DNA of 64,000 nt from a virus, in IMG/VR virus record IMGVR_UViG_3300010885_076238, positions 62,001-126,000 of that record, one strand, 5' to 3'. The position numbers and the translations under genes were made by a program. Below the pieces are notes generated by a model. The model had not been told where the DNA came from, searched no databases, and was given only the letters and a program-made list of their open reading frames with translations. Below, piece by piece: positions 6,303-63,608 of the stretch (the first letter of the stretch is position 1; each line of letters starts with the position of its first letter).

Positions 6303-6938
6303 ATGGTTCGTTTGCCAAAGTACAAAAAAGATGCCGAAGCAGCATACAAATATGCGAAAAAAAATAATATAATTTTTTCTTCAGAGGAAGAAAACGTACT
6401 AACACAAAACCCAGAAGTAGCAATCAAATATGCTTTGAATCTTAAGAAAGAAAGACTATCTGATTTTGTTAACAAAAAGGTTTTTGAATATTATTCTTCA
6501 TTGATCAAGAAAACTCAAAAAAATAAACACTCTTCCGTCTTGCATAATTTTTTTGACTATTTGAAAATGATCAAGGACGTTCCTGATTTTTGTAAAAATG
6601 AAATTTTAGAAAATATTGACCCTGAGCTTTTATATATTTTTGCACAAATTTTAGACAACAAATTAACTGAAAAATACGAAAAAAGAATGTTTCAAAAATG
6701 CCAACAACATAATAATCTTTGGCCTTTGGTAGAATATCAATTTTACTTGAAAACAAAACTACCAGACTATATGCACAATTTTATGATAGCTAAAAATTTA
6801 GAATCGAATTGTAATTCTTCAAAAAATGCCATAGAGGCATATTTTCTAAACCTAAAAGATATTAAAAATATCTTGTTAAAAATTTCTTTGGTATTTGGAA
6901 AAGAAACCAAACTTAAAGAAATTATAGAAGAGCTATGA
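6303..6938 (+). CDS. Divergent GRW-repeat family protein
   Basis: 211 residues. The N-terminus LPKYKKDAEAAYKYAKKNN matches the start of family members at 53572 and 62895 (LPKF/PKFR...A..A). One unit (EVAIKYALNLKKERLSDFV) is clear and the middle is degenerate. The cap LPDYMHNFMIAKNLES is near the C-terminus, and the ending KETKLKEIIEEL resembles the family tail TVKELL. The GRW core itself is largely lost, so this is a diverged paralogue. Confidence 0.75.
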   Translation: MVRLPKYKKDAEAAYKYAKKNNIIFSSEEENVLTQNPEVAIKYALNLKKERLSDFVNKKVFEYYSSLIKKTQKNKHSSVLHNFFDYLKMIKDVPDFCKNEILENIDPELLYIFAQILDNKLTEKYEKRMFQKCQQHNNLWPLVEYQFYLKTKLPDYMHNFMIAKNLESNCNSSKNAIEAYFLNLKDIKNILLKISLVFGKETKLKEIIEEL

Positions 6939-6941
6939 GTA

Positions 6942-7073
6942 TCAGTAAGAACACTCTTTTTGGTCTCGTTCTGTCTTTTCAATGAGTTCGTTGATAAACT
7001 CAAAATCGTAAACTCTTATTTTGTATTCTTCCATGATTTTGGCAATTTTTTCACTGAGTTCGTTGTTTTGCAT
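6942..7073 (-). CDS. 43-residue protein on the minus strand
   Basis: Begins at CAT 7071-7073 with AGGAG eight bases upstream, and ends four bases beyond the convergent gene. Composition is acidic and helical (NELSEKIAKIMEEYKIRVYDFEFINELIEKTERDQKE). The ribosome site and the clean fit between neighbours support it. Function unknown. Confidence 0.6.
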   Translation of the reverse strand: MQNNELSEKIAKIMEEYKIRVYDFEFINELIEKTERDQKECSY

Positions 7074-7166
7074 CTTGCATTCTCCTAGGTCTTGCCTTCA
7101 TTGAAGATATCCTAGCTGATTTTAGATTGACTGTAAAGACCTGCTTTAAAAATATTAAAAAATTAA

Positions 7167-7191
7167 AATAATAATTGGCTGATTCCGTTAT
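7167..7191 (+). promoter_or_regulatory. AATAATAATT-N10-GTTAT promoter, exact match
   Basis: AATAATAATT at 7167-7176 and GTTAT at 7187-7191. A leader of about 70 bases, unusually long for this window, precedes the ATG at 7266; I see no clear structure in it. Confidence 0.75.
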
Positions 7192-7265
7192 CTCTTTGTC
7201 CGCTTGCTTTACAAGTCTAATTTCTGGTCTATATTTATTCCAGCTTCACTAACAAAGGAGAAATC

Positions 7266-7454
7266 ATGAAAGTTTTTACTCTTGAAAATGTTGTTGATCG
7301 ACTCGTCAACGCAAAATCCCCGGCCCACAAAGCCCATGCTACTCGCGCACTCAAAACCTATGCTGTAATGAGAGCATTAGAGATTGGATCCACTCCATCC
7401 AGAGTAATCGCTGGGGTTCGTGCGGTTGTTACAAAGCGCAAGCAAATTGCCTAA
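7266..7454 (+). CDS. Small basic protein in a GC-rich patch
   Basis: 62 residues, Arg/Lys-rich and helical (HKAHATRALKTYAVMRALEIG, then VIAGVRAVVTKRKQIA), with a good AAGGAG site. The codons are C- and G-rich compared with neighbours (32 of 60 bases are G or C at 7321-7380). The charge suits nucleic-acid binding, but no fold is recognised. The composition may reflect recent transfer or high expression. Confidence 0.75.
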   Translation: MKVFTLENVVDRLVNAKSPAHKAHATRALKTYAVMRALEIGSTPSRVIAGVRAVVTKRKQIA

Positions 7455-7483
7455 AAAATTAGAAAAGAAAAGCAGGGATGCTT

Positions 7484-8230
7484 ATGAAAACAATGTCGGT
7501 ATCTAGACAACCAAAATATTGTGAGTCTCCACATAAGTTTATGGCTAGAGATATAATCCCAAGCCTTTATAGACTTTTTAGTGGAAATGAATCAATTCCT
7601 GAAGGAAAACAATATTTGACTTTAGCCTCCATACAGGACAAAAGTCCTCGTAGCGAAGTTAATCAAATGGTTAATTCCGGCGTGTGTACCCGCAAACAAT
7701 TTGTAGGAATTGATAACAACAAAAAATACATCAAAAGAAATAAAAAAGCCCATCCAGAAGCAACTTTTATTTGTGAAGATTGGAATGTTTTGTTGGCAAC
7801 TAGACAATTCGATCCTGCGATTGTTTATTTGGACTCTACTCATTTCGGTGACAAATTACCAGCACTTAGAACCTTAAAGAATACGTTAGACATTTGCAAA
7901 AATGAAACATTAGTTGTTTGCAATGTTATGGAATCAAACCCCCGATCAGGATTAGGTGAGTTCCTAGATTCTAAAGTCTTACTGGAAAGCCTTCTTTATA
8001 GAGAGATTCCAGCAAAATATAAAGACTGGAACAGGAGCAGAGATTGCAAATCTTGGAGTCAGGAAGAAAACTCAAATATTTATATACCAAGCTACACATA
8101 TCAGACGGCCAAGACCTTAATGAAAAGTTATATTTTTTATAAAGGTTTTATGCCTACAGAAGAAGAAATCGAAAGTTTATTTTCTGAATTTAAAATTTGG
8201 TGTAATGATATTGAGAAAACATTTTGCTAA
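7484..8230 (+). CDS. Possible Rossmann-fold methyltransferase-like protein
   Basis: 248 residues from ATG 7484 (AGGG six bases upstream); ATG 7478 is also in frame. The segment FVGIDNNKKYIKRNKKAHPEA, then FICEDWN and AIVYLDSTHF, resembles the SAM-binding GxD strand, the D/E-containing motif II and a motif IV-like strand of class I methyltransferases. The classical glycine loop is not obvious, so activity is unproven. Similar phage hypotheticals occur next to helicases. Its end overlaps the in-frame extension of the helicase. Confidence 0.6.
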   Translation: MKTMSVSRQPKYCESPHKFMARDIIPSLYRLFSGNESIPEGKQYLTLASIQDKSPRSEVNQMVNSGVCTRKQFVGIDNNKKYIKRNKKAHPEATFICEDWNVLLATRQFDPAIVYLDSTHFGDKLPALRTLKNTLDICKNETLVVCNVMESNPRSGLGEFLDSKVLLESLLYREIPAKYKDWNRSRDCKSWSQEENSNIYIPSYTYQTAKTLMKSYIFYKGFMPTEEEIESLFSEFKIWCNDIEKTFC

Positions 8231-8249
8231 AAGAAAGAAGAAAGACATC

Positions 8250-10502: not shown

Positions 10503-10509
10503 GGTCAAA

Positions 10510-11133
10510 ATGATATCTAGCATAAATACAAGCTATGATTCTTTATGCAGATTGTTTGATTTTAGTAACGGCAAAATTTCAAGTAATAAAAAATTATTAC
10601 TTAGTCTTGCAAGAAGAGGGAAGCCTAAGCCAAGTTACAAAACAAGCTTGTATGTTTACTTATGCAGTTGCACAAATAAGAATAATTGTCTTTACGACGA
10701 TGTTTTTAGCGAAAGCATTAGACAAATTAGACCAGACTGGTTTGTAAGAAGACAAGAAACAACAAGGAAGAAAAAAGAAAATCTAATAAAAATTGCAAAA
10801 AAGATGATGCCTAGACCTAATCATTCTGATGCCTCTTATAGAGATCTTTTTTCTTATACTAATAAAAATAGCAATGTTTATGACGAAGATTTTGATTCTA
10901 TTATCAGGAAACTCAGACCAGATTGGTTTTTTACTAGAACTCACTTATCGGAAATAAAGAAACAAAACATACTAAAATTAGCAAAAGAAAGAAAGCCTAA
11001 GCCTAGTAGAAATCATGTTCTTGGAATAGCAATCAAAAATTATACAAACAAAAGCAGCCCAGCCTATGATTCTAACTTTGAAGTTGAGTTAAAAAAACTC
11101 AGACCAGATTGGTTTAAAAATTCGGTAAAATAA
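10510..11133 (+). CDS. Repeat protein with three RPDWF units
   Basis: 207 residues. The N-terminus MISSINTSYDSLCRLFDF is nearly shared with the next two genes. Then come three units of about 55-60 residues, each shaped as LA..KPKPS...YTNK....YD..F...LRPDWF, ending near residues 78, 140 and 203. The pattern recalls DNA-binding repeats associated with phage and homing-endonuclease proteins. It probably binds DNA or helps the helicase upstream; this is inferred. Confidence 0.75.
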   Translation: MISSINTSYDSLCRLFDFSNGKISSNKKLLLSLARRGKPKPSYKTSLYVYLCSCTNKNNCLYDDVFSESIRQIRPDWFVRRQETTRKKKENLIKIAKKMMPRPNHSDASYRDLFSYTNKNSNVYDEDFDSIIRKLRPDWFFTRTHLSEIKKQNILKLAKERKPKPSRNHVLGIAIKNYTNKSSPAYDSNFEVELKKLRPDWFKNSVK

Positions 11134-11172: not shown

Positions 11173-12729
11173 ATGATAAACGATATTAGTTCAAATTACG
11201 AAGCTCTTTGCAAGTTATTTGACTTCACTAAAAAGAGCCGTGCAAGCGGCGTTAAAAAGACTCGCATTATTGTAAAACAAAAACTTTCCTATGAAGATTG
11301 CAAAAAAGAAGTTATTAGTTTGGGAATTGAAGGTGAAAAACAATATAGAAAAAAGAGAAATGAATTAAAAAAACATAATTGGCCTGCTTTGCCGTATGTT
11401 TTTTATAAAGAGTGGATAGATTGGGATAACTTTTGTGGAACTAAAAAAATAGAAATATTAAATTGGAATGATTTCTTATCCAGCTTCAGAGAAGAATGTC
11501 GCAATAATAAAATAAACAGTCGCAATTATCGTGAATTTAGGAAAGAAAATTGGCCTAAAGACCCACGTTCGTATTATCGTGAATGGTCAGGATGGGATTA
11601 TTTATGTGGCGGCGTTGTAGTTGAGCCATATCGTTGCAAAGACATTTCTTTTGAAGATCTAAAAGAAGAAGTAAAGAATTGTAATGTCACTTCTTTCCCA
11701 GAATATAGAAAATGCTATAAAAATCACAATTGGCCTGCTTCTCCTCGTTCTATGTACGAGAACGAATGGGTTTCTTTCAATCATTTTTTCGGAAAAGAAA
11801 AGAAATTTTTGTCTTATGAAGATTTAGTAGTAGAAGTTAGAAAAGCTGAGATCAGTAGTATGACTCAGTATCACGAATACAGAATAAAAAATAATAAAAA
11901 ATCATGGAACTCTACTCCTCATAAATTTGCAGAGTGGACTAATAATTTTGATTTCTTCGGAAAAGATAAAGATCATTGGGCTAAAAAAGGTATTTCTTCT
12001 TATAAAGATGCAAAGACTCTTGAGCAGCTTGTCAAGGAGATTAGAGACAATGGGGTAAAAACCAGAAAAGAGTATAGGAAAAATTGTAAAAAATTAGGAT
12101 GGCCTGCTAATCCCGATGATGCCTACAAGGATTGTTGGAAGGGATGGGATTTCCTATTTAGCAGGGAAGAAAAAGTTGAATTGTCTTGGAACGAATTTGT
12201 CGCACAAGTTAGAGACGCAAAAATCAAGGGATTTTGGGACTATAGAAATAGATATAAAAACTATAAAGGCTGGGTCTCTCATCCTATGAAAAAATACGCT
12301 GAAGATTGGACAACTTGGATGGACTTGCTTGGCGAGCATTTTTCTAAAAAAAACTCAGAAAACGAACATAAAAACAAAATTTCTTGGGAAGAACTCAAGA
12401 GACAAGTTAGAGCCGTAGAAATAGAAACGCAACTAGAATACAGAACGAGATATAAAGAGTATGGATGGACTTCAAGCCCAGAAAAAAGCTATCCAGATAA
12501 CTGGAATGGCTGGGATGATTTTATTGGAAAAAGACAAATTACTTTTTCTCAACTGAAAGAAGAAGTCAAATTAAATAATATAAAAGGACAGGTAGAATAT
12601 AGAAAAAGACACAAAGAATTTGATGGCTGGCCTTCTGCTCCTGAACGTGTTTTTGAAAATGAATGGAAAGATTGGTTTGACTTTTTGAGCAAGCCAAGAG
12701 ATAAGTATCACCAAGAGGCTCAAAGATGA
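11173..12729 (+). CDS. Eight-unit phage-integrase-repeat (INT_rpt-like) protein
   Basis: 518 residues. It has the shared N-terminal segment MINDISSNYEALCKLFDF, then eight units of about 55 residues. Each unit reads [LI]S[YWF]E[ED]L..EV...I.S...YR..YK...WP..P...Y...W.GWD.F.G. This is the pattern of the phage-integrase repeat unit family, associated with DNA binding. No integrase catalytic domain is present, so the protein is repeats only. It overlaps the next paralogue by four bases. Confidence 0.8.
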   Translation: MINDISSNYEALCKLFDFTKKSRASGVKKTRIIVKQKLSYEDCKKEVISLGIEGEKQYRKKRNELKKHNWPALPYVFYKEWIDWDNFCGTKKIEILNWNDFLSSFREECRNNKINSRNYREFRKENWPKDPRSYYREWSGWDYLCGGVVVEPYRCKDISFEDLKEEVKNCNVTSFPEYRKCYKNHNWPASPRSMYENEWVSFNHFFGKEKKFLSYEDLVVEVRKAEISSMTQYHEYRIKNNKKSWNSTPHKFAEWTNNFDFFGKDKDHWAKKGISSYKDAKTLEQLVKEIRDNGVKTRKEYRKNCKKLGWPANPDDAYKDCWKGWDFLFSREEKVELSWNEFVAQVRDAKIKGFWDYRNRYKNYKGWVSHPMKKYAEDWTTWMDLLGEHFSKKNSENEHKNKISWEELKRQVRAVEIETQLEYRTRYKEYGWTSSPEKSYPDNWNGWDDFIGKRQITFSQLKEEVKLNNIKGQVEYRKRHKEFDGWPSAPERVFENEWKDWFDFLSKPRDKYHQEAQR

Positions 12730-13796
12730 TAAACAATATTAGTTCAAATTATAAAGCTCTTTGCGAACTGTTTAATTTCAGCAAAAAAAGCTATAGTCGC
12801 CCGAAGAGCCGAAGACTCCGCGTAGTGGAATTTTTATTATTTGAAGAATGCAAAAAAGAAGTTAGACAACAAGGGATAAAAAGTTCGACTGAATACAAAA
12901 AGCTCTATGCTAAAAGAAGCTGGCCGTCTGATCCTACGAAATACTATAAAGAACAATGGAAAGGTTGGCATGACTTTTTGGATAAAGAATGTTTGATTTC
13001 TTTTGAAGAACTTAAAAAAGAGGTTGCTTTAAAAGACATCCAGTCTTCTAGTCAATATCAAAAAACTTTCAAAAGTAACAAATGGCCTCGTCAACCATTT
13101 GTTACTTTTGAAAAAGATTGGAAAGGCTGGGATGATTTTTTTGGTAGAGCCAAAAAACTTTCATACGAAGAAATTAAAAAACAATTGAGATTAAAGGGTG
13201 TTATTTCTATGCCCCAATACAAAAAAGTATATAAAAATAATGGATGGCCCTCCAATCCAAACTCGTTTTATAAAAAAGAATGGAAAGGTTGTTATGATTT
13301 TTTCAATACGAAGAAGCCAAAATTTATTTCGTTTGCACAACTAAAAAAAATATTAAAATTTGAGCATGTTGATTCTTGGATTAAGTATAATAAAATATAT
13401 AAAAAAAGAAATTGGCCATCATCTCCGCGAGATTCTTATAAAAGAGAATGGAAAGGAGGGCATGACTTTTTTGGAAATACAGAGCCGACAAAGTTTCCTT
13501 CTTTCGAAGAAATAAAAAAAGAAATGAAAAAAGAAAAAATTAAATTTTGGAGTCAATATAAAAAACTATACAAAGAAAAGGGCTGGCCTTCTAGGCCACA
13601 AGATTATTACAAAGAGTGGAAAAATTGGCGTGGAAAAAAATTTCCTTCTTTTAACGAGTTTAAAGAAAAAATAAAAATAGAGGGCATTGAAATTTTTTCG
13701 AATCAATATAAAAAATTATACAAAAAAAGAGGATGGCCTTCTAACCCAAATAAATTTTATGAAAAAGAGTGGAAGAAAGGTTTGTTTAAAAAATGA
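12726..13796 (+). CDS. Six-unit phage-integrase-repeat (INT_rpt-like) protein
   Basis: 356 residues, paralogous to the gene before it. It has the same N-terminal segment (MINNISSNYKALCELFNF) and six units with strongly conserved Y[KR]K.YK...WPS.P...YK.EWKG..DFF. It is very lysine-rich, and the last two units are shorter. Start ATGATAAAC overlaps the upstream stop. The three neighbouring genes look like a set of DNA-binding arrays produced by duplication and unit gain or loss. Confidence 0.8.
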   Translation: MINNISSNYKALCELFNFSKKSYSRPKSRRLRVVEFLLFEECKKEVRQQGIKSSTEYKKLYAKRSWPSDPTKYYKEQWKGWHDFLDKECLISFEELKKEVALKDIQSSSQYQKTFKSNKWPRQPFVTFEKDWKGWDDFFGRAKKLSYEEIKKQLRLKGVISMPQYKKVYKNNGWPSNPNSFYKKEWKGCYDFFNTKKPKFISFAQLKKILKFEHVDSWIKYNKIYKKRNWPSSPRDSYKREWKGGHDFFGNTEPTKFPSFEEIKKEMKKEKIKFWSQYKKLYKEKGWPSRPQDYYKEWKNWRGKKFPSFNEFKEKIKIEGIEIFSNQYKKLYKKRGWPSNPNKFYEKEWKKGLFKK

Positions 13797-19255: not shown

Positions 19256-19409
19256 TGGCAGTGGCGGCTCACTGATAAATGAATTAAAAGGAAAAATTAC
19301 AAATTGGGTAAGCACAGAAGTGCCCAATGCAATCAATAATTCAATTGAAAATTCAGAAATAACAAAAAGTATGAAAATTTCTGCCGAGTTTGAAAATAAT
19401 AAAAAATAA
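19239..19409 (+). CDS. 56-residue hypothetical protein
   Basis: Starts inside the previous gene. It begins MNIKDDGSGGSLINELKGK and is polar and Asn/Glu-rich with one amphipathic helix. Its stop codon lies within the promoter of the calpain gene, so it ends the operon that began at 17099. Confidence 0.55.
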   Translation: MNIKDDGSGGSLINELKGKITNWVSTEVPNAINNSIENSEITKSMKISAEFENNKK

Positions 19410-19419
19410 AGCTCGTTAT
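19395..19419 (+). promoter_or_regulatory. AATAATAATT-N10-GTTAT promoter, leaderless class
   Basis: AATAATAAAA, ten bases, GTTAT at 19415-19419, then exactly six bases to the ATG at 19426. It fixes that ATG as the start of the calpain gene. Confidence 0.75.
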
Positions 19420-19425
19420 AGCCTT

Positions 19426-20466
19426 ATGAAGCTATTTATTGAAACTCTTGAAGCACGAACCGTTTTGTCTGTAGTGTTTTTTGATAAAGAAACCAAAGCA
19501 GCGGTGGCAAATGCTTATAAAGACAAAATTATTTCAAGAGATGAGCTTGTTTCTATTTTTAGGCAGACCACCGATCAGAACACAATCACCGCCAATGAAC
19601 TATCAGATTTGAGAAAAGTTACGACGTTGAGAATGCCAGAGCATGTTCGATACTTGGCTAAAGATGTCGTTTTTGCGAATATTGCAAATGCAAAGTTTCA
19701 AGGCAATACTTTGGGCAACTTGACGGCAAATTCTCCCGCTCAAAAGATTAATAATCTTATAGATAAATGGTTTTATGGAAAAGACCGTCCAGCCTTGCCT
19801 AACAATCTATCATATAAAGAAAGCAAATTGCCTTTATTCGACAATGGAGCGACAAGCACGGATGTTATTCAAGGTCAACTTGGAGATTGTTATTTATTGG
19901 CATCATTAGCCTCTGTTGCAGATAAATTAGGCATAAGAACTTCGTTTATCGACAATGGCGACAGAACATGGACGATTAGGCTTTATGATTTGAATGGCAT
20001 ACGCAAGGTGGATTATATCACCGTTGACAGTTACCTTCCGGTTGATGCGAATGGGTCATCCATTTATGCAAATTTTGATAAAGAATTATGGGTTGCACTA
20101 ATCGAAAAAGCATATGCACAATATAATGAAACGGGTGGCACATGGCATTTAGAAAAGTCAAATAGTTATCAAGCAATAGTGGGTGGCTATCCTGTTCTTG
20201 CACTAGAAAGCATAACGGGAGTGCCTACTAAATGTAATTTTTTCTCTGATGCTATGGCTCAAACAACATTGAACAAATCACTTTATCGCGGCGATGCTGT
20301 TGTTTTATCTGCCCCAGTTAAAGATAAAGATGTTTCTCATTCTTATTATGTAAAATCCTATTTAAATGGCTTGTATTATTTGTATAATCCTTGGGGCTTT
20401 AGTCATTTAGAAGTTACTTGGGATCAATTGAAAACAAACATAAACTTTGTTATAGAGGCAAAATGA
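19426..20466 (+). CDS. Calpain-like cysteine protease, planctomycete-type N-terminus
   Basis: 346 residues from ATG 19426, chosen because the promoter ends six bases before it. The N-terminus MKLFIETLEARTVLS matches the short LExRxxLS segment at the start of planctomycete surface proteins. A helical prodomain follows, then the calpain C2 catalytic core: QGQLGDCYLLAS with Cys155, SHSYYVK with His305 and NPWG with Asn321. All three triad residues are present, so activity is expected. Calcium-binding C2-like domains are absent. It may act outside the cell or on host surface proteins; this is inferred from the N-terminus. Confidence 0.87.
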   Translation: MKLFIETLEARTVLSVVFFDKETKAAVANAYKDKIISRDELVSIFRQTTDQNTITANELSDLRKVTTLRMPEHVRYLAKDVVFANIANAKFQGNTLGNLTANSPAQKINNLIDKWFYGKDRPALPNNLSYKESKLPLFDNGATSTDVIQGQLGDCYLLASLASVADKLGIRTSFIDNGDRTWTIRLYDLNGIRKVDYITVDSYLPVDANGSSIYANFDKELWVALIEKAYAQYNETGGTWHLEKSNSYQAIVGGYPVLALESITGVPTKCNFFSDAMAQTTLNKSLYRGDAVVLSAPVKDKDVSHSYYVKSYLNGLYYLYNPWGFSHLEVTWDQLKTNINFVIEAK

Positions 20467-30049: not shown

Positions 30050-32536
30050 TTATTTTTTACTAACTTGATAGCACCAAAATTTAATTGTTTTATCATTATT
30101 ATAGCCAACCTTCACACAACTCTTAATTTGTTTAATTTTTGATAAAATCTTTGCGAATTGTGGTTGGTATTTAAAAGAACCTTCTAAATTCATAACAAAT
30201 TCTAATATAACAAAAACTAAAGACTTAATTTCTGAAAATTCTTTTGTCTGTCTCCAGTGTGGGTTTAGATCAAATCTATTACTTAGCTTCACATCTACTG
30301 ATTCTAAATTAATCATAGTTTGAATAAAGCTATCAATTACATCATTTATTTCTCTAGATTTGTATGTAGCATCCATATTATTATCATAAGAAATAACTCT
30401 AAATTTTCTTTGCATTTCTCCAAGAATTCTTACAAATCTTTTGCCGATATTGGCAACACCTGTTTGGGACTTTGAAATTCCTTCTTTTGTAGAACCGATT
30501 TTGCTAAAATCTATTTTAGAATAATCGCCATCAAAAAGTCCAGAACTTATCAATTGATCACTTAATAAGATTGCTTTATTAATTTGAATCTTTAGTTCTT
30601 CTGTAATAATGCCTGGGCCGGTCATGCTTAGTATATAATTAAGATTGGTTCCGATGTAACGAACTTTATCTTTATTGAATATTCCCTTTGTAATAAGAGC
30701 TTGATATTCATCTTCGCTTATTTTTTTGGCTTCTCTCACAAGAGAAGAACATAAAACAAAAAAGTTATTGAGCACTCTTTCAATTTTACCCATTCCATAA
30801 TATTTCACATTGCCTAATTCAGTCTGAACTTTGCTAAGATTACGCTCCAATCCCATAAACCATTTTTCTTTAGGAGTGGCATCTAGTCCAAAACGGATTT
30901 CGTCTTTTTTTTGTTTATCATAATAGTCATTGTCACACTCGCCAATTTGATTAATAATAATTGTAGAAATTAATTCGATATTTTTTGTGCTAAAAAATAC
31001 TCCCTGAGTTGGCTCTGAGGGATATATTGATCCTGTATCGTGCGAGTCTAAAAGACCATCAATCCCTAGTTTTCTTAGTAGTCCCGTCCACATTGCCCAA
31101 GGGCGATATTTTTTTTGATTACGTTCGGGCTTTTCTTTTTCCCCTCTGTTTGAACCTATGTAGCCTTTTTTTGCTATTATCATATCTGATATTTTTTTTG
31201 TGATCACATAAAGAAATTTACCGGAAACGTCCTGCTTCCCAGATGATCTCAGACTGATTAGAGACTTCATTAAAGCTTGATTCCAATCTATATCATTTTT
31301 TTCACAAAAATCTTGTAGTTCTTTGCCAAATGGAACTTTTATGGATTCTGATATTTCTTTTTTTCTTTTTGCTATTTCAACTTCAAAATTACCAATTTTT
31401 TTTACCCAATAATCTAATAATTTTTTTACTTTTTTATTTGATAATAAGAAATAACTTTCAATGTAAGTATTGAAATTAGGGCTTGCATCAATATCTCTAA
31501 AATAAGATCCTAAATTAACATAAGATCTCAGACTTTTTGAAATTTTAGTTAATTCTTCTAAAGAAATTTTATCATTTCCAAGCATTTCGAGCATTTTGCG
31601 ATCATTTTCTCTTGAAATGCCCCCAGTACCGCTAGAAAAAGGCTCGGTTTTTATCATTTTATTTGCAAAATTTCTAACCTCGTCAGACAATGCAAAAGAA
31701 TTATTGTCTAAATTAGTGAATAAAGGTAGTTTTTGCGAAGAACCGGGCCATGGCGATAAACTAGAAATCAAATTATCAAGACCAAAATTAATCATCATTC
31801 TTGTTGCGTTGAAAGTCAATTCAGAAATTATTCTTTCAAAATTTTCTTTCGATGAAAGTTTTTCAATTCTATCAACAGAATATTTTTTAATTGATTTTTC
31901 TTCTTCTGAGTAGTCGTCCATCTCGCTCTTAGCAGTTGATACTGTGTTATGATAGAAATTATAAACAATATCATCGCTATACAATTCTGCTCCGCTTTTT
32001 AATAATTCCTCTTTTATTGTTTTTTTTAATAATTTAATTTTTAAATTTTCATGCTTGTAAATATAGTTGCTTATTTGTTGTTTTATGGTTTTGTTTATTT
32101 CATCAACATCGGAAATTTCTTTTATTTCTCCTTCTCCTGGCTTCATAGAAATATAACTTTCTTTATTTTTAATTTTAAAAATGTGAAGATACTTTCTGCT
32201 TCCGGCCATAGGAACGCCTGAGACATTCTTTTTAATAATATACTCAAGAGGAAAAGCATATAATCCTAAAGGAGTTCCACCATCGTCAGCAGAATATTTT
32301 GGCCCAAGTCTTTGAACACAAGAAAAATTACCCCATATGTCTTCGGGCTTAGTGTTATTGTTCACAGCTTTTTCAAAGACAGTCTTTATTTGTTTGATTT
32401 TTTCAAACTTTCTGTAAGGTTTTCCTGTTTGAGGATCGGCTATAGATGGATCAACTCTGCCCACGGCTCTTGAAAGGAGTTGTGGTTCTTCTATCAAATA
32501 TGTGTCTATTGGTTGAAAATATTCTTTAAAATTCAT
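30050..32536 (-). CDS. Giant tagged protein A (probable internal virion protein)
   Basis: 828 residues. The N-terminus MNFKEYFQPIDTYLIEEP fits the capsid-targeting tag shared by eight proteins here, with LIE|E as a possible prohead-protease site. The region near residues 70-95 has RLGPKYSADDGGTPLGLYAFP and the C-terminal half has LGIDGLLDSHDTGSIYPSEP then TQGVFFS. Both blocks recur in the paralogue at 34149. The GYDG-like...PTQ.VFF layout resembles toxin-like ADP-ribosyltransferase regions of phage head proteins, but catalytic residues cannot be assigned. The rest is helical. It is likely injected or packaged rather than structural. Confidence 0.65.
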   Translation of the reverse strand: MNFKEYFQPIDTYLIEEPQLLSRAVGRVDPSIADPQTGKPYRKFEKIKQIKTVFEKAVNNNTKPEDIWGNFSCVQRLGPKYSADDGGTPLGLYAFPLEYIIKKNVSGVPMAGSRKYLHIFKIKNKESYISMKPGEGEIKEISDVDEINKTIKQQISNYIYKHENLKIKLLKKTIKEELLKSGAELYSDDIVYNFYHNTVSTAKSEMDDYSEEEKSIKKYSVDRIEKLSSKENFERIISELTFNATRMMINFGLDNLISSLSPWPGSSQKLPLFTNLDNNSFALSDEVRNFANKMIKTEPFSSGTGGISRENDRKMLEMLGNDKISLEELTKISKSLRSYVNLGSYFRDIDASPNFNTYIESYFLLSNKKVKKLLDYWVKKIGNFEVEIAKRKKEISESIKVPFGKELQDFCEKNDIDWNQALMKSLISLRSSGKQDVSGKFLYVITKKISDMIIAKKGYIGSNRGEKEKPERNQKKYRPWAMWTGLLRKLGIDGLLDSHDTGSIYPSEPTQGVFFSTKNIELISTIIINQIGECDNDYYDKQKKDEIRFGLDATPKEKWFMGLERNLSKVQTELGNVKYYGMGKIERVLNNFFVLCSSLVREAKKISEDEYQALITKGIFNKDKVRYIGTNLNYILSMTGPGIITEELKIQINKAILLSDQLISSGLFDGDYSKIDFSKIGSTKEGISKSQTGVANIGKRFVRILGEMQRKFRVISYDNNMDATYKSREINDVIDSFIQTMINLESVDVKLSNRFDLNPHWRQTKEFSEIKSLVFVILEFVMNLEGSFKYQPQFAKILSKIKQIKSCVKVGYNNDKTIKFWCYQVSKK

Positions 32537-45432: not shown

Positions 45433-46521
45433 ATGCCTAATACAATTACGCCAATCGAAGCAGCAAGCCTTTACTTCAAAGAAGGCTCAAGTGATAAAGT
45501 TTACAATGCTACCTTGGAAAAAGAGGATGACAACAAATATGTTGTTAATTTCTCTTACGGCAGACGAGGAAGTGCATTGAAGTCTGGATCCAAAACCTCA
45601 AGCCCCGTTTCTCTTAAGGAAGCCAAGACCATCTTTGACAAAATTGTCAGAGAGAAAACTTCTAAGGGCTATAAATACGTCACCGACGCTGTTGCTAAAG
45701 AAATTCATGTTGCCGACAACCCACCGGACACGCCTACTGAGTCCAAGTGCGTTTTGCTCAATCCAATCAGCGAAGAAGAACTTGAAAAGTATTTGAACGA
45801 TCCAGATTGGATTGCCCAACAGAAAATTGATGGAGTTAGATTTATGCTCCATAAGGTAAAAGATAAAATTACTGCGTATAACCGTCGCGGACTTTACGCA
45901 AACATTCCAACCGATCTTTATAATTTCGCAAAAAACACTCAAGAAGATTTTCTAGTTGATGGAGAATTGATTGGAGATGTTTTTCACACCTTCGATATTC
46001 TTGAATATAACGGCAAAGACCTTACTCAAAACTCAGTTGTCGAAAGGCTTGAGGTTTTGTTGAATTGGGTTAATAATAATCCGTGCGAACTTGTAAAGTA
46101 TACAGAAACTCAAAGTTCAAGCAAAATTGAATTTTATGATCGTCTTGTTCGTGAAAACCAAGAAGGAATTGTTTTCAAACATAAAGACGCAAAGTATTAT
46201 GCTGGTAGGCCCGCCAGCGGTGGAAAGTATGTAAAATATAAGTTTTACAGCACTTGTAGTTGTGTCGTGACTGATGTGAATAATAAAAGAAGCGTAAGTA
46301 TAGGCTTGCTCAATGGCAAAAAATTAGTTGATGCTGGGAATGTTACTATTCCTATCAATTTTGAAATTCCTAATAAGGATGACATTGTGGAAGTCAGATA
46401 CCTTTATGCAAGAAAGCAGTCTGGCTCTCTTTATCAGCCTGTGTATCTTGGCAAAAGAACCGATATTGTTAGAGAAGATTGCAAGCAAAGTCAACTGAAG
46501 TATAAATTTGATGATGAATAA
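45433..46521 (+). CDS. WGR-domain ATP-dependent DNA ligase
   Basis: 362 residues. Residues 12-80 form a WGR-like domain (LYFKEGSSDKVYNATLEK; FSYGRRGSALKSGSK), known from PARPs and bacterial MolR-type proteins for nucleic-acid contact. The ligase core follows: KIDG with K131, VDGEL (175-179), EGIVFKH (244-250) and KYVKYK (265-270), then an OB-fold. The fusion occurs in planctomycetes and some phages. It probably repairs breaks with WGR-guided end binding. Distinct from the ligase at 3317. Confidence 0.9.
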   Translation: MPNTITPIEAASLYFKEGSSDKVYNATLEKEDDNKYVVNFSYGRRGSALKSGSKTSSPVSLKEAKTIFDKIVREKTSKGYKYVTDAVAKEIHVADNPPDTPTESKCVLLNPISEEELEKYLNDPDWIAQQKIDGVRFMLHKVKDKITAYNRRGLYANIPTDLYNFAKNTQEDFLVDGELIGDVFHTFDILEYNGKDLTQNSVVERLEVLLNWVNNNPCELVKYTETQSSSKIEFYDRLVRENQEGIVFKHKDAKYYAGRPASGGKYVKYKFYSTCSCVVTDVNNKRSVSIGLLNGKKLVDAGNVTIPINFEIPNKDDIVEVRYLYARKQSGSLYQPVYLGKRTDIVREDCKQSQLKYKFDDE

Positions 46522-48120: not shown

Positions 48121-49137
48121 ATGAATAGCTACCACAAGCAATATAGAGAATTTGTCAAAGAACTCAACCCAACCGATGCAGAAGTTAATAATTTTTTGTG
48201 GGGACATAAAGCAGATTTCTCTCAACATAAGAAATTAGGAATAATTAAAAAAATTCTCACCAGTCCAAAATGGTGTTACGAATACGCAAAACTTATAAAT
48301 AAAGATAGATGGGAAAAGGGCGAAAAAACCATACTGACTGATGCCCAACATTCACACCTTTACGCAAGAGATATAATCAAAGGTAGATGGATCGAAGCAG
48401 AAGAAATTATCAAAACAGAATCCTCAATTGCGTATGATTATGCAGCAAACATAATCAAAGGCAGATGGATCGAAGCAGAAGAAATTATCAAAGAGGATTC
48501 ATATAGAACATATTTTTACGCAGCAAACATAATCAAAGGCAGATGGATCGAAGGCGAAGAAATTATCAAAACAGCCGGTGACGCTGACGCTGCTTATCAT
48601 TATGCAAAAGATATAATTAAAGGTAGATGGATAGAAGCAGAAGATTTTATTAAAACAAATCCAGGTTGTGCTTTTGGTTACGCAAATGATGTTATCAAAG
48701 GTAGATGGATCGAAGCAGAAGATTTTATTAAAACAAATCCATGCTATGCTTATGAGTATGCAAAAGATGTGATCAAAGGCAGATGGATCGAAGCAGAAGA
48801 TTTTATTAAAACAGATCCATACTATGCTTATTATTACGCAAGAGATGTCATCAAAGGTAGATGGATCGAAGGCGAAGAAATTATTAAAACAGATCCACGC
48901 CATGCTTATGATTATGCAAAAGATGTGATCGAAGGCAGATGGATCGAAGGTGAAGATATTATTAAAACAGATCTGCGTTATTCATGGGATTATGTTCGAA
49001 ATTTAGTAAAAGAAAGATGGGAAAATGGAGAAGGAATCTTCGCATCTGATCCACAATATTTGTATAGATATGCCACGGAAATTCTAATAGACGAACTACC
49101 CCCCGAATTAGAAGCAGCATACGCTTTACATGAATAA
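48121..49137 (+). CDS. GRW-repeat protein, most regular array
   Basis: 338 residues with ten units and a modified cap (ELPPELEAAYALHE). Units 2-9 are almost identical (YAKDVIKGRWIEAEDFIK followed by TDP/TNP); one has a two-residue insertion (TAGDADAAYHYA). The N-terminal 55 residues are a capping region with a Trp. Near identity at the DNA level shows recent unit duplication or gene conversion. Confidence 0.92.
   Translation: MNSYHKQYREFVKELNPTDAEVNNFLWGHKADFSQHKKLGIIKKILTSPKWCYEYAKLINKDRWEKGEKTILTDAQHSHLYARDIIKGRWIEAEEIIKTESSIAYDYAANIIKGRWIEAEEIIKEDSYRTYFYAANIIKGRWIEGEEIIKTAGDADAAYHYAKDIIKGRWIEAEDFIKTNPGCAFGYANDVIKGRWIEAEDFIKTNPCYAYEYAKDVIKGRWIEAEDFIKTDPYYAYYYARDVIKGRWIEGEEIIKTDPRHAYDYAKDVIEGRWIEGEDIIKTDLRYSWDYVRNLVKERWENGEGIFASDPQYLYRYATEILIDELPPELEAAYALHE
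48360..48990 (+). repeat. 78-bp tandem DNA repeats within a GRW gene
   Basis: Eight or so 78-base units share long identical runs, such as ATCAAAGGCAGATGGATCGA, coding for one 26-residue unit each. They are candidates for slippage and recombination. Confidence 0.85.
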
Positions 49138-54469: not shown

Positions 54470-55174
54470 ATGGAAGAACTAAACGAAATTATCATCTGCT
54501 CAATCCTCAACAAACTGAAAATTGATGCTATCGCCACTGTTTCAGAACAACTCAGTTGGGCAGATGCAGATGAAGATGGAAAAGTAGACGGCGGTGTGCA
54601 TTATTTTTTGGAACTTGACGCACTAAAAGAAACAAGAGAAAGATTAGTAAAAGAAATTCTTGAAGGATTCAATCGTCCAGAAATTCGAAATTATAGATTC
54701 AACAATAGCATCAAATACTCAAAAGTGCATCAGTTACAAGAAAACGAAAAACACATAAAGGAAATAAAATTTTTCGGAATCAACAGCAAAAATAAAACAA
54801 TAGAACCAATAAGTGAAAAATTAGATAAAAATATTAAAGATCTACTGCCAGAAAAAGTATACAATTTTATTATTGCAAAATGTTTGGTAGATGAAAATCA
54901 TAAACATATACTCAGTCTAAATGGATTAGATTTAATTCTCAATTATTGGAAAAATAATCTCCCCGATACAGATAATGATTGTTGGTCGGGTGACGGAAAT
55001 TCACAATATTTTTGGGAAGTGTTGTTCAAAGAAAACAACCAAATAAACGTAGATTATGGAGGCGAATTTGGAGCAGGCGAACTAAATTTCTATAGCCACA
55101 GTCAAGATTTATTAAAATATGATTTTTGGAAGGTTTTTACCGAAAATTATCCAAAAATTACTAATAATTCATAA
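54470..55174 (+). CDS. Hypothetical protein, paralogue of the gene at 57301
   Basis: 234 residues, leaderless start. The N-terminus MEELNEIIICSILNKLKIDA matches MQEFNEIIIKSIFKKLNIDC of the gene at 57301, and LPEKVYNFIIAKCLVDE is a cap-like block in its middle. A DxDxDG-like DADEDGKVDGG (about residues 32-42) could bind calcium. The C-terminal domain is Trp/Asp-rich (WKNNLPDTDNDCWSGDGN). No known function. Confidence 0.72.
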   Translation: MEELNEIIICSILNKLKIDAIATVSEQLSWADADEDGKVDGGVHYFLELDALKETRERLVKEILEGFNRPEIRNYRFNNSIKYSKVHQLQENEKHIKEIKFFGINSKNKTIEPISEKLDKNIKDLLPEKVYNFIIAKCLVDENHKHILSLNGLDLILNYWKNNLPDTDNDCWSGDGNSQYFWEVLFKENNQINVDYGGEFGAGELNFYSHSQDLLKYDFWKVFTENYPKITNNS

Positions 55175-59112: not shown

Positions 59113-59139
59113 CAAGAATTTAATAATTGTAAATAATGA

Positions 59140-59693: not shown

Positions 59694-59723
59694 CTCATAT
59701 CAACCCGACATAAGGATAAAACC

Positions 59724-60035: not shown

Positions 60036-60108
60036 ATTTATTAATTATTGTGGGTTATCTACCCAAATCTAACCTTTTATAATATTTAGCTGTGGGAAAC
60101 TAACCCAT

Positions 60109-60124
60109 CTGCACAAATTTTGGT
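60109..60124 (+). repeat. CTGCACAAATTTTGGT, copy 1
   Basis: Identical to 60436-60451; the core GCACAAATTTT occurs again at 62548. Role unknown. Confidence 0.75.
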
Positions 60125-60259
60125 TCACCTAATAAATTAAATAATGGCTAATATTTAATTATAAAAATAGGGTCTAGTTAAATTAAGTAATAAATTTATT
60201 AAAAAAGGTAGTGCTTAGACCCCCTTTATAATTATAACTAACTAACGGGGAAATATAGT

Positions 60260-60297
60260 TTTCTAATAAAATCTAAGGGTTTCTAGTAAAATCTAGG
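60260..60297 (+). repeat. Tandem direct repeat in the candidate origin
   Basis: TTTCTARTAAAATCTARG occurs twice, spaced 20 bases apart (60260, 60280), with two base differences. It could be an iteron-like site. Confidence 0.7.
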
Positions 60298-60305
60298 TAA
60301 AAACA

Positions 60306-60407
60306 ATGTATATTACTAATTATGAGTATCTGAGTGCGTTATTGAGTGTATTATTGATGGGAGTTGGGTTGGGGCTTTCATTGAGTAAGCTATTTTTTGT
60401 TGAATAA
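60306..60407 (+). CDS. 33-residue membrane peptide
   Basis: Starts ATG 60306 after CTAGGT. It is hydrophobic (LSALLSVLLMGVGLGLSLSK) with a single helix and G-rich codons like the genes downstream. Uncertain, because it lies in the candidate origin. Confidence 0.4.
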   Translation: MYITNYEYLSALLSVLLMGVGLGLSLSKLFFVE

Positions 60408-60435
60408 TTAAAAAATAAGTAGAAAATAATCTCTT

Positions 60436-60451
60436 CTGCACAAATTTTGGT
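60436..60451 (+). repeat. CTGCACAAATTTTGGT, copy 2
   Basis: Second identical copy, 327 bases from the first. Confidence 0.75.
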
Positions 60452-60545
60452 AGAGATTATATAGAAAATTAATAAAAAATAGTTTTTACGATATTGGGTG
60501 GTACTTTTTTTAAAGTAAAAAGACACCTGATGTTTATTTTGTATC

Positions 60546-60554
60546 TGGTATAAT
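60546..60554 (+). promoter_or_regulatory. Extended -10 promoter (TGGTATAAT)
   Basis: A perfect TGN-TATAAT. A weak -35 lies in CTGATGTTTATTT (60527-60539), which recurs before the gene at 62672. Likely drives the gene at 60595 with ribosome site GGAGG. Confidence 0.6.
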
Positions 60555-60594
60555 AATATTTTGTCTTATTCGATATGGTATACCGGAGGATAGA

Positions 60595-61341
60595 ATGGCT
60601 AAGATAAACTTATTGGACTTTTCTAAGACGTTCTCGTTGAATAGTCATGGATACAGGGGAGATTACTGGTCTAATTCTACTATAGGCGCTCCTGCTGGCG
60701 GGGGTGCTTGGACATTATCTTCTGATTTTGAAGTTGCTGTTATCAATAAGATAGTTAGTTGGAGTGATTGGAAGGGTTGTCCTGAGAATATTTTGTTATT
60801 GGCCTTTTTTAAGAAGGCTGGGAAGTTATCGGACAACAGTATTTTCTACAGCAATATTAATTCAATAAAGAGACATAGTCATTGGCGTGGATGTGACGTA
60901 GTTTATACATTTTGTAGGAATGTATTGAAGGGTAGGTTGCCGAGTGGAGCGGAGGGGAATTTTCTTTCGGACATATGGGATAATCATTATGGTAGTAGGT
61001 TTGCATATAAGTATGCTAAGTATGTGATTCGTGGTCGGTTGCCTGTGGAGTATGAGAAGGGTTGTCAGAGTCTTGATTACTTGGGATTTTTGGAGACTAA
61101 GGGGATAGAGATTAGTGATATATTAATTAATAGTACGGCTTTATCCTTTAGTTACTACAAGTATTTTTATCATTTGCCTGAGGTTGTTCATAATTTTATG
61201 TTGGCGATGCAGTTGAGTGGAGATGGTTATGCTTCTGCTTATTTCCGTCAGCGTAATAAGGATGATGTTTTGATAAAGAACAGGTTGAAGATGGTTGATC
61301 CTAATAAGACTGTGAAGGAAGTATTGATGGGGTTGAAATGA
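60595..61341 (+). CDS. Divergent GRW-repeat protein
   Basis: 248 residues. Units are degenerate (YTFCRNVLKGRLPSGAEGNF, YAKYVIRGRLPVEYEKGC). The cap is YHLPEVVHNFMLAMQLSGDG and the tail MVDPNKTVKEVLMGLK. The N-terminal 90 residues contain a Gly-rich loop (GAPAGGGAWTL) not seen elsewhere. Codons are strongly G-biased (AAG, GGG, TTG). Overlaps the next gene by four bases. Confidence 0.8.
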   Translation: MAKINLLDFSKTFSLNSHGYRGDYWSNSTIGAPAGGGAWTLSSDFEVAVINKIVSWSDWKGCPENILLLAFFKKAGKLSDNSIFYSNINSIKRHSHWRGCDVVYTFCRNVLKGRLPSGAEGNFLSDIWDNHYGSRFAYKYAKYVIRGRLPVEYEKGCQSLDYLGFLETKGIEISDILINSTALSFSYYKYFYHLPEVVHNFMLAMQLSGDGYASAYFRQRNKDDVLIKNRLKMVDPNKTVKEVLMGLK

Positions 61342-61829
61342 ATATATTGGGTAGAATTTTATTGATAATTCCTTTTTGTAAATTGTTATATGATTACGTT
61401 CCTTCCTTGGACTTTTATAGTCTTAATTATCCTCTTGGAGCGTGGCTATTAATTTTATTGGGTTTGATTTCAATTTTATTTAATATTAGTAGAATATTGG
61501 GTATAATTTACATATTGGTTGGGTATGGGTTATACAGTTATTTTATACAGAGTGATATTTATAGTTTGTGGCCGGTTGGTGGTTTAATTTTATTAATTAG
61601 ATCAGATGTTAGTAAGAAGGTTGTGGAGAAGGTTGTTCCTGTAAAGGAGAAGGCAGTTGAGAAGGTAGTTCCTGCAAAGAAGAAAGTTGTAGTTGAGAAG
61701 GTAGTTCCTGTAAAAATTAATAAAACGAAGTCTGATGAATATTGGGAGAGGTATGACGCTCGCAATAAAAAGAATTTGTTTTTTAACTTAAAAGACAAAT
61801 TTAATAAATTATTGGTAGTGGGTAGGTAG
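61338..61829 (+). CDS. Multi-pass membrane protein with VEKVVPVK repeats
   Basis: 163 residues. Three to four membrane helices occupy residues 3-88 (LGRILLIIPFCKLL; LGAWLLILLGLISILF; LGIIYILVGYGLYSYF). A tail of repeated VEKVVPVK/VEKVVPAK units (about 95-127) and a basic end follow. Repeats resemble in style the EEIPV array at 16549. Function unknown. Confidence 0.75.
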   Translation: MNILGRILLIIPFCKLLYDYVPSLDFYSLNYPLGAWLLILLGLISILFNISRILGIIYILVGYGLYSYFIQSDIYSLWPVGGLILLIRSDVSKKVVEKVVPVKEKAVEKVVPAKKKVVVEKVVPVKINKTKSDEYWERYDARNKKNLFFNLKDKFNKLLVVGR

Positions 61830-61875
61830 TAAATTAAAAAAAATTAAGTGTGGTTTTTTGCGGGGAAAAGTGAGC

Positions 61876-61903
61876 TTTACAAGAAAAAAAATTGGGCTAA
61901 AAT
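61876..61903 (+). promoter_or_regulatory. Sigma70-like promoter (TTTACA-N16-TAAAAT)
   Basis: TTTACA at 61876-61881 and TAAAAT at 61898-61903, 47 bases before the regulator gene at 61950. Confidence 0.5.
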
Positions 61904-61949
61904 GTTTGTTGTGTTTACGGTAAAATTTTTTTCACATGGAGGCTAAATT

Positions 61950-62423
61950 ATGCCCGCTGGAAGACCAAAGGGATCGAGTGGAACTAACAAGAGTTCGATT
62001 ATTCGGGAATACATTAAAGCTAATCCCACAGCGACTACGAATGAAGTGATGGAGGCGTTGGGTCAGAAGGGCATTGAGGTTAGTCAAGCTCTTGTGGCTG
62101 GAGTACGTTCTAGGGAGATGCGTGGCCCTGGGAATAAGAGTCGCAAGCGTGGTGAGATCACGGTTAGCGAATTGAATAGTATTAATGCGATGGTGGAGAA
62201 GTTTGATGATCGTTCTGTAATTATGAATATTATAGACGACATGACGACCTTGATTAAGGAAATTGGTGGTATTGATCGTTTTGAAGAAGCGATGAAGGAG
62301 TTCCAGAATTGGAAGCCTGAGTCTGAATCTTTGAAGGCGGAAGCTGCTTCTGACATATCTGGTGATGACGATGATGAGGATTCGGATGATGATGAGGACG
62401 AGGATGAAGACGAGGACGAATGA
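61950..62423 (+). CDS. Planctomycete-type DNA-binding protein with acidic tail
   Basis: 157 residues, GGAGG upstream. The AT-hook-like MPAGRPKGSSG is followed by an HTH-like block IREYIKANPTATTNEVMEAL, then GIEVSQALVAGVRSREMRG, a layout familiar from planctomycete hypotheticals. The tail (last 25 residues) is nearly all Asp/Glu. Probably a DNA-binding regulator with an AT-hook. Confidence 0.72.
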   Translation: MPAGRPKGSSGTNKSSIIREYIKANPTATTNEVMEALGQKGIEVSQALVAGVRSREMRGPGNKSRKRGEITVSELNSINAMVEKFDDRSVIMNIIDDMTTLIKEIGGIDRFEEAMKEFQNWKPESESLKAEAASDISGDDDDEDSDDDEDEDEDEDE

Positions 62424-62426
62424 ATT

Positions 62427-62448
62427 GGGAAGTTTTCGCTGACTTCCC
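62427..62448 (+). terminator. Hairpin after the regulator gene
   Basis: GGGAAGT (62427-62433) pairs with ACTTCCC (62442-62448) around an eight-base loop. No strong U-run follows, so termination would be weak or Rho-dependent. Confidence 0.5.
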
Positions 62449-62561
62449 ATAGTTAAGCCTTCGGGTTAGGATCGCGGGTAATCCTTTAATTAACTGCCGT
62501 AGAGTTTTTAGAAGTTTCTGTAAGACTGAAATCTTCTATTGTTGGTTGCACAAATTTTAAT

Positions 62562-62622
62562 AAAGAATATACTAGGGCCATTTCTGTGATATACTTTACA
62601 GAAGTGGCCTTAGTATTTCTTT
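62562..62622 (+). other. Long imperfect hairpin, possible structured RNA
   Basis: A 19-base stem (62569-62587 with 62598-62616, two G-U pairs, loop of ten) is extended by AAAGAA/TTCTTT (62562-62567, 62617-62622) past one bulge. GCACAAATTTT sits 3-14 bases upstream. It could be a terminator with a weak U-tract, an RNase III site or a small RNA. Confidence 0.6.
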
Positions 62623-62671
62623 AAACCAAGTAGGCATCTCCTGATGTTTATTTACTCAAGGAAGGGTAGGT

Positions 62672-62857
62672 ATGTTTAGGAATGAGAAGATAGTTGTTTT
62701 GGATATAGTTGATAGGTGTCTTAAGTTGGAGGATGATCGTGGTCAGATAATAAGTTTGATTTTTATTAAGGGTGGAAAATTAATAATTAAGGGTGAGTTG
62801 AAAGTTTCAGATAGTTCGATAGAGGCTCCAGAGATTAATTACTTGGATAAAAAATAA
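62672..62857 (+). CDS. Small beta-rich protein
   Basis: 61 residues, AAGGAAGG upstream. Short strands (KIVVLDIVDRCLKLEDDRGQ; FIKGGKLIIKGELKVSDSS) suggest a beta barrel or sandwich. No family recognised. Confidence 0.65.
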   Translation: MFRNEKIVVLDIVDRCLKLEDDRGQIISLIFIKGGKLIIKGELKVSDSSIEAPEINYLDKK

Positions 62858-62877
62858 AAATAATTATGTATCGTTAT
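62853..62877 (+). promoter_or_regulatory. GTTAT-type promoter
   Basis: AATAAAAATA, ten bases, GTTAT at 62873-62877; GTAGGAG before the ATG at 62895. It shows that the element is also used beyond the skew switch. Confidence 0.65.
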
Positions 62878-62894
62878 GGGGTAGGAGACAAAAA

Positions 62895-63608
62895 ATGGAA
62901 AATACCCCTAAGAAGCCTACTGAAATTCTTCCTTATAGGGAAGAGGATTGGGCAGGCGTTAGCGTTCCTAAGTTTAGGGATGCGAGTCGTGCGTGGAAGT
63001 TTTTGAAGAAGCATGGTTTTTATCGGCTTCCTGAGAAAACTGAATTAGTATTTTTGAAGGATTTATCATTAGCGATAGATTATGCTGTTCGGGTAGGCAC
63101 TAGGTTGCCGGTTGTTTTTGAAACTGAGTTGAAGAAGCATCCTCAGTTGAGTTATGATTATATTTCTAGGGTGATTCAGGCGCCTTTGGAGGAATTTGAA
63201 GAAACTATTAGCAAGGTTCCTTCGTTGCTTGTGAAGTATAGTCATGAAATTTTAGAGGCGCCTTTGCCGGAGCATTTGGAAAATTGTTTGGCGGGTGATC
63301 CGTATAATTGTTTTGAATATGCGTGGCAGGTTCTTGACGGACGTTTGCCGGAAACTTTGCACAACTATATGTTTTGTGCTAACATGGACAATAACTTTGG
63401 ACGTAGGTATCGTGGTGGGTATCATACTAAGTTGAAGGGAGCAGAGGAATACAGTCCTGACTATGTTAGTCCAGAGACTTATTTTGAATTTATCAAGTGG
63501 CAAAGGAAAAATTTGCACAGGCAGATTCAGCATTATCAAAAAATTTATGGTGTTGAATCGAAGCAGACTGTTGGCGAATTTTTACATGAATTAGAGCATG
63601 GTCGTTAA
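62895..63608 (+). CDS. Divergent GRW-repeat protein
   Basis: 237 residues. The N-terminus SVPKFRDASRAWKFLKKHGF matches 53572 and 6303. Units have LP or APL in place of GRW (YAVRVGTRLPVVFETELKK, YISRVIQAPLEEFEETIS, YSHEILEAPLPEHLENCL, YAWQVLDGRLPETLHNYM), the last merging with the cap. A basic helical end contains TVGEFLHELEHGR, the family tail. G-rich codons. Confidence 0.8.
   Translation: MENTPKKPTEILPYREEDWAGVSVPKFRDASRAWKFLKKHGFYRLPEKTELVFLKDLSLAIDYAVRVGTRLPVVFETELKKHPQLSYDYISRVIQAPLEEFEETISKVPSLLVKYSHEILEAPLPEHLENCLAGDPYNCFEYAWQVLDGRLPETLHNYMFCANMDNNFGRRYRGGYHTKLKGAEEYSPDYVSPETYFEFIKWQRKNLHRQIQHYQKIYGVESKQTVGEFLHELEHGR

Follow-up and report, generated by a model that had tools for sequence, protein, structure and literature searches.

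A phage repeat family of 26-residue units, predicted to fold as an alpha/alpha solenoid and possibly serving as a protein-binding scaffold

What could a phage gain from carrying, within one part of its genome, sixteen genes built from variants of the same short repeat? The window considered here, the whole stretch of 64,000 nucleotides that was analysed, corresponds to positions 62001–126000 of the 204,311-bp IMG/VR record IMGVR_UViG_3300010885_076238. Genes for a T4-type RNA ligase/tail-fibre attachment protein, DNA ligases, helicases and a tape-measure protein assign this record to a tailed phage; no close cultured relative was found for the proteins tried from it (top identities around 30%). 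An earlier note on this DNA had listed sixteen genes as sharing a 26-residue unit and/or a C-terminal cap; an ORF check located all of them, every one on the + strand (Table 1). Three more members lie beyond the window, namely a unit gene at record positions 154481–155164 and cap-only genes at record positions 30266 and 147286, and those tail genes that could be located sit at the ends of the record and not near the repeat family.

Table 1. Repeat-family members and an internal tandem repeat in the window (window positions; genes are named in the text by their first position; LOO, leave-one-out).
Feature	Position	Strand	Support
Degenerate units + C-terminal cap, 211 aa	6303..6938	+	cap LOO E 2.6e-6; unit E 6.5e-3
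5 units + cap, 199 aa	13839..14438	+	unit E 4.6e-43; cap LOO E 2.9e-12
Marginal member, cap-like segment only, 187 aa	17521..18084	+	cap LOO E 0.041
Essentially cap only, 119 aa	20463..20822	+	cap LOO E 4.9e-13; unit E 5.4e-3
Irregular array + cap, 373 aa	23317..24438	+	unit E 1e-49; cap LOO E 8.3e-12
N-terminal phrog_2164 domain (no function assigned) + cap, 158 aa	24431..24907	+	cap LOO E 1.2e-10; phrog_2164 3e-22
Irregular array + cap, 321 aa	25546..26511	+	unit E 3.4e-22; cap LOO E 1e-9
N-terminal phrog_4400 domain, 3 units, cap, 374 aa	28373..29497	+	unit E 2.8e-17 (non-seed); phrog_4400 5e-11
Regular 10-unit array + cap, 307 aa	41422..42345	+	unit E 1.7e-99; AF2 mean pLDDT 88.6
5 units, short cap at end, 181 aa	42870..43415	+	unit E 1.2e-50; cap LOO E 1.8e-8
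Regular 11-unit array without cap, 338 aa	48121..49137	+	unit E 1.4e-116
78-bp DNA tandem repeat inside gene 48121	48360-48973	–	TRF period 78, 7.8 copies
Units + degenerate cap, 317 aa	51738..52691	+	unit E 6.2e-29
Scattered units + degenerate cap, 272 aa	52734..53552	+	unit E 2.1e-11 (non-seed); cap LOO E 0.17
~7 units + cap, 289 aa	53572..54441	+	unit E 1.6e-47; cap LOO E 5.6e-4
Cap, vestigial units, 248 aa	60595..61341	+	cap LOO E 1.1e-3; unit E 0.051
Degenerate units + cap, 237 aa	62895..63608	+	cap LOO E 7.1e-6; unit E 8.7e-4

A unit HMM of 26 positions, seeded with 29 units from eight window genes, detects arrays in ten of the genes at E≤2e-11 (range 1e-116 to 2e-11): 48121 and 41422, where the regular arrays described earlier were recovered with 11 and 10 units, 42870 (5 units), 23317, 53572, 13839, 51738, 25546, 28373 and 52734. 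The last two are an independent confirmation, since neither is in the seed, and the non-seed unit gene beyond the window is likewise matched (1.2e-24); reversed ORFs yielded no unit array with this HMM, the lowest E being 0.38. The period is 26, with spacings of 25–28 within regular arrays, and across 185 unit ORFs a spacing of exactly 26 occurs 694 times, the runner-up being 27 with 16. As regards the cap, its HMM, scored leave-one-out, recovers it at E≤5e-5 in 13839, 20463, 23317, 24431, 25546, 28373, 41422, 42870, 6303 and 62895, at about 1e-3 in 53572 and 60595, and marginally in 17521; that of 52734 was not recovered, though this gene has units, and 48121 has no cap. The gene family is thus real, 15 of the 16 genes being supported by these HMMs with 17521 marginal, and the presence of unit and/or cap holds for most of them, although units are at most vestigial in 62895, 20463, 6303 and 60595. 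The ending TVKELLxxL attributed to many of the genes does not survive, as a literal TVKELL occurs in none of the 16 and inspection of the sequences gives a looser, similar ending in about six. The GKLPExxHNxMIA of the cap lines up with the unit start GRWxEAExxI, and because of this alignment the cap looks like a specialised terminal unit.

The form that these units would adopt was approached through structure prediction. In the AlphaFold2 model of 41422, obtained from an alignment of 41 arrays, each unit is a helical hairpin of a 7-residue helix A (positions 4–10) and a 12-residue helix B (positions 14–25), with pLDDT 95–99 in the array and about 55 in the poorly modelled cap, and the model of a fused relative (mean 92.8) repeats the same 7+12 array. 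As modelled, then, the array is an alpha/alpha solenoid of regularly stacked helical hairpins; for 41422, one of the proteins the earlier note had singled out for structure prediction, the predicted fold is repetitive, and a non-repetitive fold was not seen. Foldseek against the PDB found no match at E≤0.001, the best being designed helical repeats, TPR and PUF proteins, with a weak resemblance to PUF (probability up to 0.85, E about 0.1–0.2). A viral structure library gave two weak, probability-1 matches, an uncultured Caudovirales protein and A0A248SK38 (648 aa), which is probably gp435 of Salicola phage SCTP-2, given that the gp435 gene has an equal length.

The earlier note had remarked on the heavy paralogy in one 64-kb stretch. 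The repeat is, however, not restricted to that stretch but widespread in large phages, with comparable or larger sets elsewhere. A degenerate DNA pattern of the unit occurs in 101 IMG/VR stretches, many of them in records of 100–380 kb, and in only eight contigs among some 85,000 cellular genomes, four of these contigs in a single Lokiarchaeota MAG; of the suggested planctomycete link there is one Planctomycetia MAG contig among the eight and nothing further. With 48121 as query, 17 places match in the source record and 15–18 in two others; a further record, of 84.9 kb, has 38, which make up an 18-kb stretch of adjoining genes. Because other records thus hold 15–38 matched places, heavy paralogy is a recurring habit of the repeat and not the oddity of one phage. 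Against cultured phages tblastn with the arrays gave no match, probably through repeat masking, whereas a query fused to the domain described below did match. Degenerate cap patterns and a search with cap proteins found few viral relatives, the LPExxHN cap appearing only in the source record and in records L121 and L086, and it seems, from these searches, to be confined to that lineage; the source and L086 records also have in common a WGR-type DNA ligase (57% identity). Plasmid matches were mostly repeat noise, for example to YadA (~16% identity); a few weak units are present in one ORF of a Rhizobium megaplasmid.

Two architectures can be distinguished: (i) arrays that stand alone behind a short N-terminal piece, the form seen in the window, and (ii) arrays placed C-terminal to another domain, often in T4-type phages. 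The commonest partner is a domain of ~230 residues with a GxGTxWCTA motif, here named WCTA, of whose 179 ORFs 36 carry units. Although confidently modelled (mean 92.8), this domain matched no solved structure, and Foldseek with the fusion gave nothing usable. In another fusion (L042) the partner is a nucleotidyltransferase above the Pfam cut-off, and a nucleotidyltransferase-like GxS...DxD motif can be seen in the sequence of the N-terminal phrog_4400 domain of 28373. Readings of two further sequences as ADP-ribosyltransferase (L106) and amidoligase (L025) were not confirmed by Pfam.

Selection acts on the units unevenly. From simple counting estimates on nearest-neighbour pairs of these recombining units, core dN/dS is 0.15 (0.10–0.19) for the window and 0.16 for other contigs, and exposed dN/dS is 0.78 (0.45–1.32) and 0.82 (0.72–0.93), respectively; purifying selection on the core is strong, and exposed positions are near neutral in the window. 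A window value above 1 for exposed sites, obtained by pooling all unit pairs, disappeared with nearest-neighbour pairs only. The G006 paralogs of contig 3300035181_001867 do reach an exposed dN/dS of 1.94 (1.44–2.68), with 0.86 in the core. The idea of diversification against variable partners is thus supported only in part, exposed values above 1 being confined to that one other phage. By column entropy E7 and Y20 are invariant, with maxima at positions 15, 16, 19 and 22. Arrays also vary in length: exactly one unit separates two contigs that are 98.5–99.97% identical, and the proteins of a second contig pair are 462 and 332 residues long, assembly collapse being possible in both cases.

These data bear on a first alternative, that the family is self-propagating repeat DNA, expanded by slippage and gene duplication and tolerated with small benefit to the phage. 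The 78-bp tandem repeats at the DNA level, the differing unit number between close contigs and the near neutrality of exposed sites would all fit; however, the core dN/dS shows that the fold is maintained, the cap is conserved separately from the units, and the 26-residue unit is common to very different phages, all of which makes this origin decidedly unlikely in our judgement. A second alternative, that the units read nucleic acid in the fashion of PUF or TAL repeats, is in keeping with the modular gain and loss of single units and with the weak PUF likeness, but a structural match at the threshold given above is missing, the most regular members are acidic (pI 5.2 for 48121 and 5.9 for 41422) with charge not conserved, and a conserved basic or aromatic stripe is absent. 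We hold it to be very improbable, and nucleic acids, which had been proposed among the partners, are not indicated by any finding.

The N-termini of the fused proteins introduce a further element, for they resemble the capsid-targeting leaders of T4 (e.g., MRLFEFIMES, MKPTFIEFLIEA, MAMRSRDFLIEY). L/I-X-E is the site after which the protease gp21 cuts in T4, where the ten N-terminal residues of IPIII are enough for packaging (PMC9026906). In sets made non-redundant before counting, 67% of the 33 fusion proteins and 72% of the 133 WCTA proteins have [LI]xE within residues 4–16. Windows further along these proteins give 9–26%, and 925 other ORFs give 16%, with some noise from mechanically assigned start codons; a looser leader test on redundant data gave 34% vs. 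7%. The T4-type protease PF03420 (Peptidase_S77) is encoded in 10 of the 14 unit-bearing records >180 kb, and also in PA5oct and SCTP-2, and phage PA5oct has a WCTA-domain relative whose annotation as a virion/structural protein comes from ESI-MS/MS. It could be proposed that the window members are themselves internal head (ejection) proteins, packed into the capsid and injected, their paralogs being cargo. The leader frequency of the fused relatives, which fits the gp21 site, the protease and the PA5oct annotation would favour this, as would the precedent of SPN3US, in which head proteins form a paralog family of 20 members (PMC5694885). However, the leader occurs in 0 of the 16 window genes, short-N-terminus array proteins in general show [LI]xE at background (12%), neither PF03420 nor PF04586 proteases appear in the window's record, which may be incomplete, and the PA5oct protein itself has no units. 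As leaders, protease and annotation divide in this way, packaging of the fusion class in the head is likely, packaging of the window's stand-alone class is unsupported, and we regard a head role for the window members as unlikely.

The explanation we prefer, to which we would give about an even chance, is that the solenoid is a protein-binding scaffold, present in the window as capped stand-alone binders and appended in T4-type phages to probable head-packaged proteins. Stacking of the helical-hairpin units would give a rigid alpha/alpha solenoid with the C-terminal cap LPExxHNxMIAxA as its seal; in it, buried R2, E7, I10, Y20 and A21 would hold the fold, positions 8, 9, 15, 16, 19 and 22, being exposed, would be free to alter specificity, and the arrays could lengthen or shorten by whole units. 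Most members in the window phage would then be stand-alone soluble binders encoded in a non-structural accessory region, and in large T4-type phages the same solenoid would be attached to head-packaged, probably injected proteins. The protein-binding function is inferred, and the targets of the window members would most plausibly be host factors during infection, a guess that draws on the leaders of the relatives, on the paralogy and on a setting among accessory, non-structural genes. It counts against the scaffold that the exposed-site dN/dS of the window also fits plain relaxation, that variation at exposed sites is to be expected in any solenoid, that the model of the cap is poor, and that members range in pI from 5.2 to 9.5 and so have no common surface.

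Carried one step further, on analogy with ankyrin, the unit might be a phage-specific exchangeable binding solenoid, at once a diversified interaction repertoire and a module bolted to capsid-delivered effectors in T4-type phages; this is a tentative idea, about which we are rather doubtful. If it were true, a single scaffold would serve both cytoplasmic and injected host-takeover proteins, and a repeat-protein system particular to large phages would have been described, its fold clear, its consensus unit ready for design and its natural variants numerous. The connection with capsid-targeting-like leaders, which was unexpected and was observed here across many uncultured T4-type phages, offers a sequence route to listing probable injected proteins, and a route to testing binding by the solenoid.

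Where does this repeat stand among known systems? Searches of Pfam, NCBIfam, PADLOC and PDB sequences gave no valid match to the repeat, and in the first three no functionally assigned repeat family was found to house the unit; the PADLOC models of anti-phage defence matched none of the ten proteins tested. The Pfam names Phage_gp38, RepB, TruB_C and HTH_35 came from summed sub-threshold repeat matches, in which hardly any stretch or none passes by itself, and are mutually inconsistent. TPR, Sel1, PUF, LRV and other alpha solenoids likewise stack short helices into a superhelix, but the phage unit is a 26-residue 7+12 hairpin with no significant match in Pfam, NCBIfam or PDB; TPR_7 reached 20.1 bits where the cut-off asks for 27.9, none of its stretches passed singly, and the period is 26, not 34–40, in agreement with the earlier description of a heavily paralogous unit shorter than TPR, PPR or Sel1. 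DUF4116 (PF13475), a short repeat of ~24 residues (49-position model) placed after a WCTA domain in SCTP-2 gp45, differs in period and motif: window members have no Pfam match to it, the profile comparison shows no sequence similarity (hhalign probability 0.1 vs. SCTP-2 gp45), and a Fadolivirus DUF4116 protein is among the weak fold matches (probability 0.60). The T4 internal head proteins (IPI-III, Alt) and the SPN3US head paralogs have in common with the fused relatives the capsid-targeting-like leader and L/I-X-E site, together with paralog expansion, but their sequences are unrelated and window members lack the leader. In gp435 (ASV44450) of SCTP-2, an isolated phage, a WCTA domain is followed by about two recognisable units, although that unit stretch is short, the cap absent and the remainder unrelated. 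PHROGs also has phrog_28193 (681 aa, no function assigned), whose positions ~200–290 match the units of several window members at E from 8e-12 to 0.015 (48121 8.4e-12, 28373 2.1e-8, 13839 8.9e-5) and whose earlier positions match the WCTA domain of the fused relatives. On these profile matches the repeat part belongs with phrog_28193, which represents one fused architecture with few units and without stand-alone capped arrays; its N-terminal GTxWCTA-like motif is absent from all 16 window proteins. The unit strings tested were not found in the literature searched, and the repeat, which works as other alpha solenoids do, belongs to none of the alpha-solenoid families tested and makes up a phage-centred solenoid family that seems undescribed.

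The domain of about 230 residues that carries the GxGTxWCTA motif (WCTA), the commonest partner fused N-terminal to the unit arrays in T4-type large phages, appears to represent a large, undescribed family; its DNA pattern matches at least 120 viral stretches (for example L087:2523-3824, and many of L134-L250). Its fold is confidently predicted and is without a match in the PDB, and 72% of the WCTA proteins begin with leaders resembling those that target T4 proteins to the capsid; they look like probable internal head proteins. In gp45 of Salicola phage SCTP-2 (L123:6355-7689), the WCTA domain is joined to DUF4116 repeats in place of GRW units, an arrangement which suggests that repeat types are exchanged behind one and the same domain.

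Units are also present on four contigs (L127, L128, L130 and L131) of a single Lokiarchaeota MAG, RBin_111, one of which (L128) contains in addition a WCTA-like ORF; these probably derive either from phages and were placed in the archaeon's bin, or from a virus of the archaeon itself. The ORF of the Rhizobium plasmid, with an E of 1e-6 computed in a small set, is a possible bacterial occurrence of the unit.

Features in the window and on plasmid pRlX5
Location	Feature	Detail
window 10510-11133, 11173-12729, 12726-13796	three consecutive paralogs	common start MIxxISSxYxALCxLFxF
window 19390-20466	calpain-family cysteine protease	matches PF00648 at 1.4e-17
window 45433-46521	ATP-dependent DNA ligase	WGR domain at N-terminus
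window 54470-55174, 57256-57921	gene pair, common start EFNEIII/ELNEIII	weak cap-like scores
L255:2501-2815	unannotated ORF, Rhizobium leguminosarum plasmid pRlX5	few weak GRW-like units

Within the window, the gene pair (E 0.034 and 0.0024, respectively) could represent additional degenerate members of the unit/cap family. Two of the three consecutive paralogs resemble PF14882, the integrase repeat unit of Pfam, with scores that reach its cut-off or come close to it, and the ligase has a relative, at 57% identity, in the L086 record, which likewise has unit-cap genes. Immediately upstream of cap gene 20463 lies the calpain-family protease gene, of a type that is uncommon for a phage.
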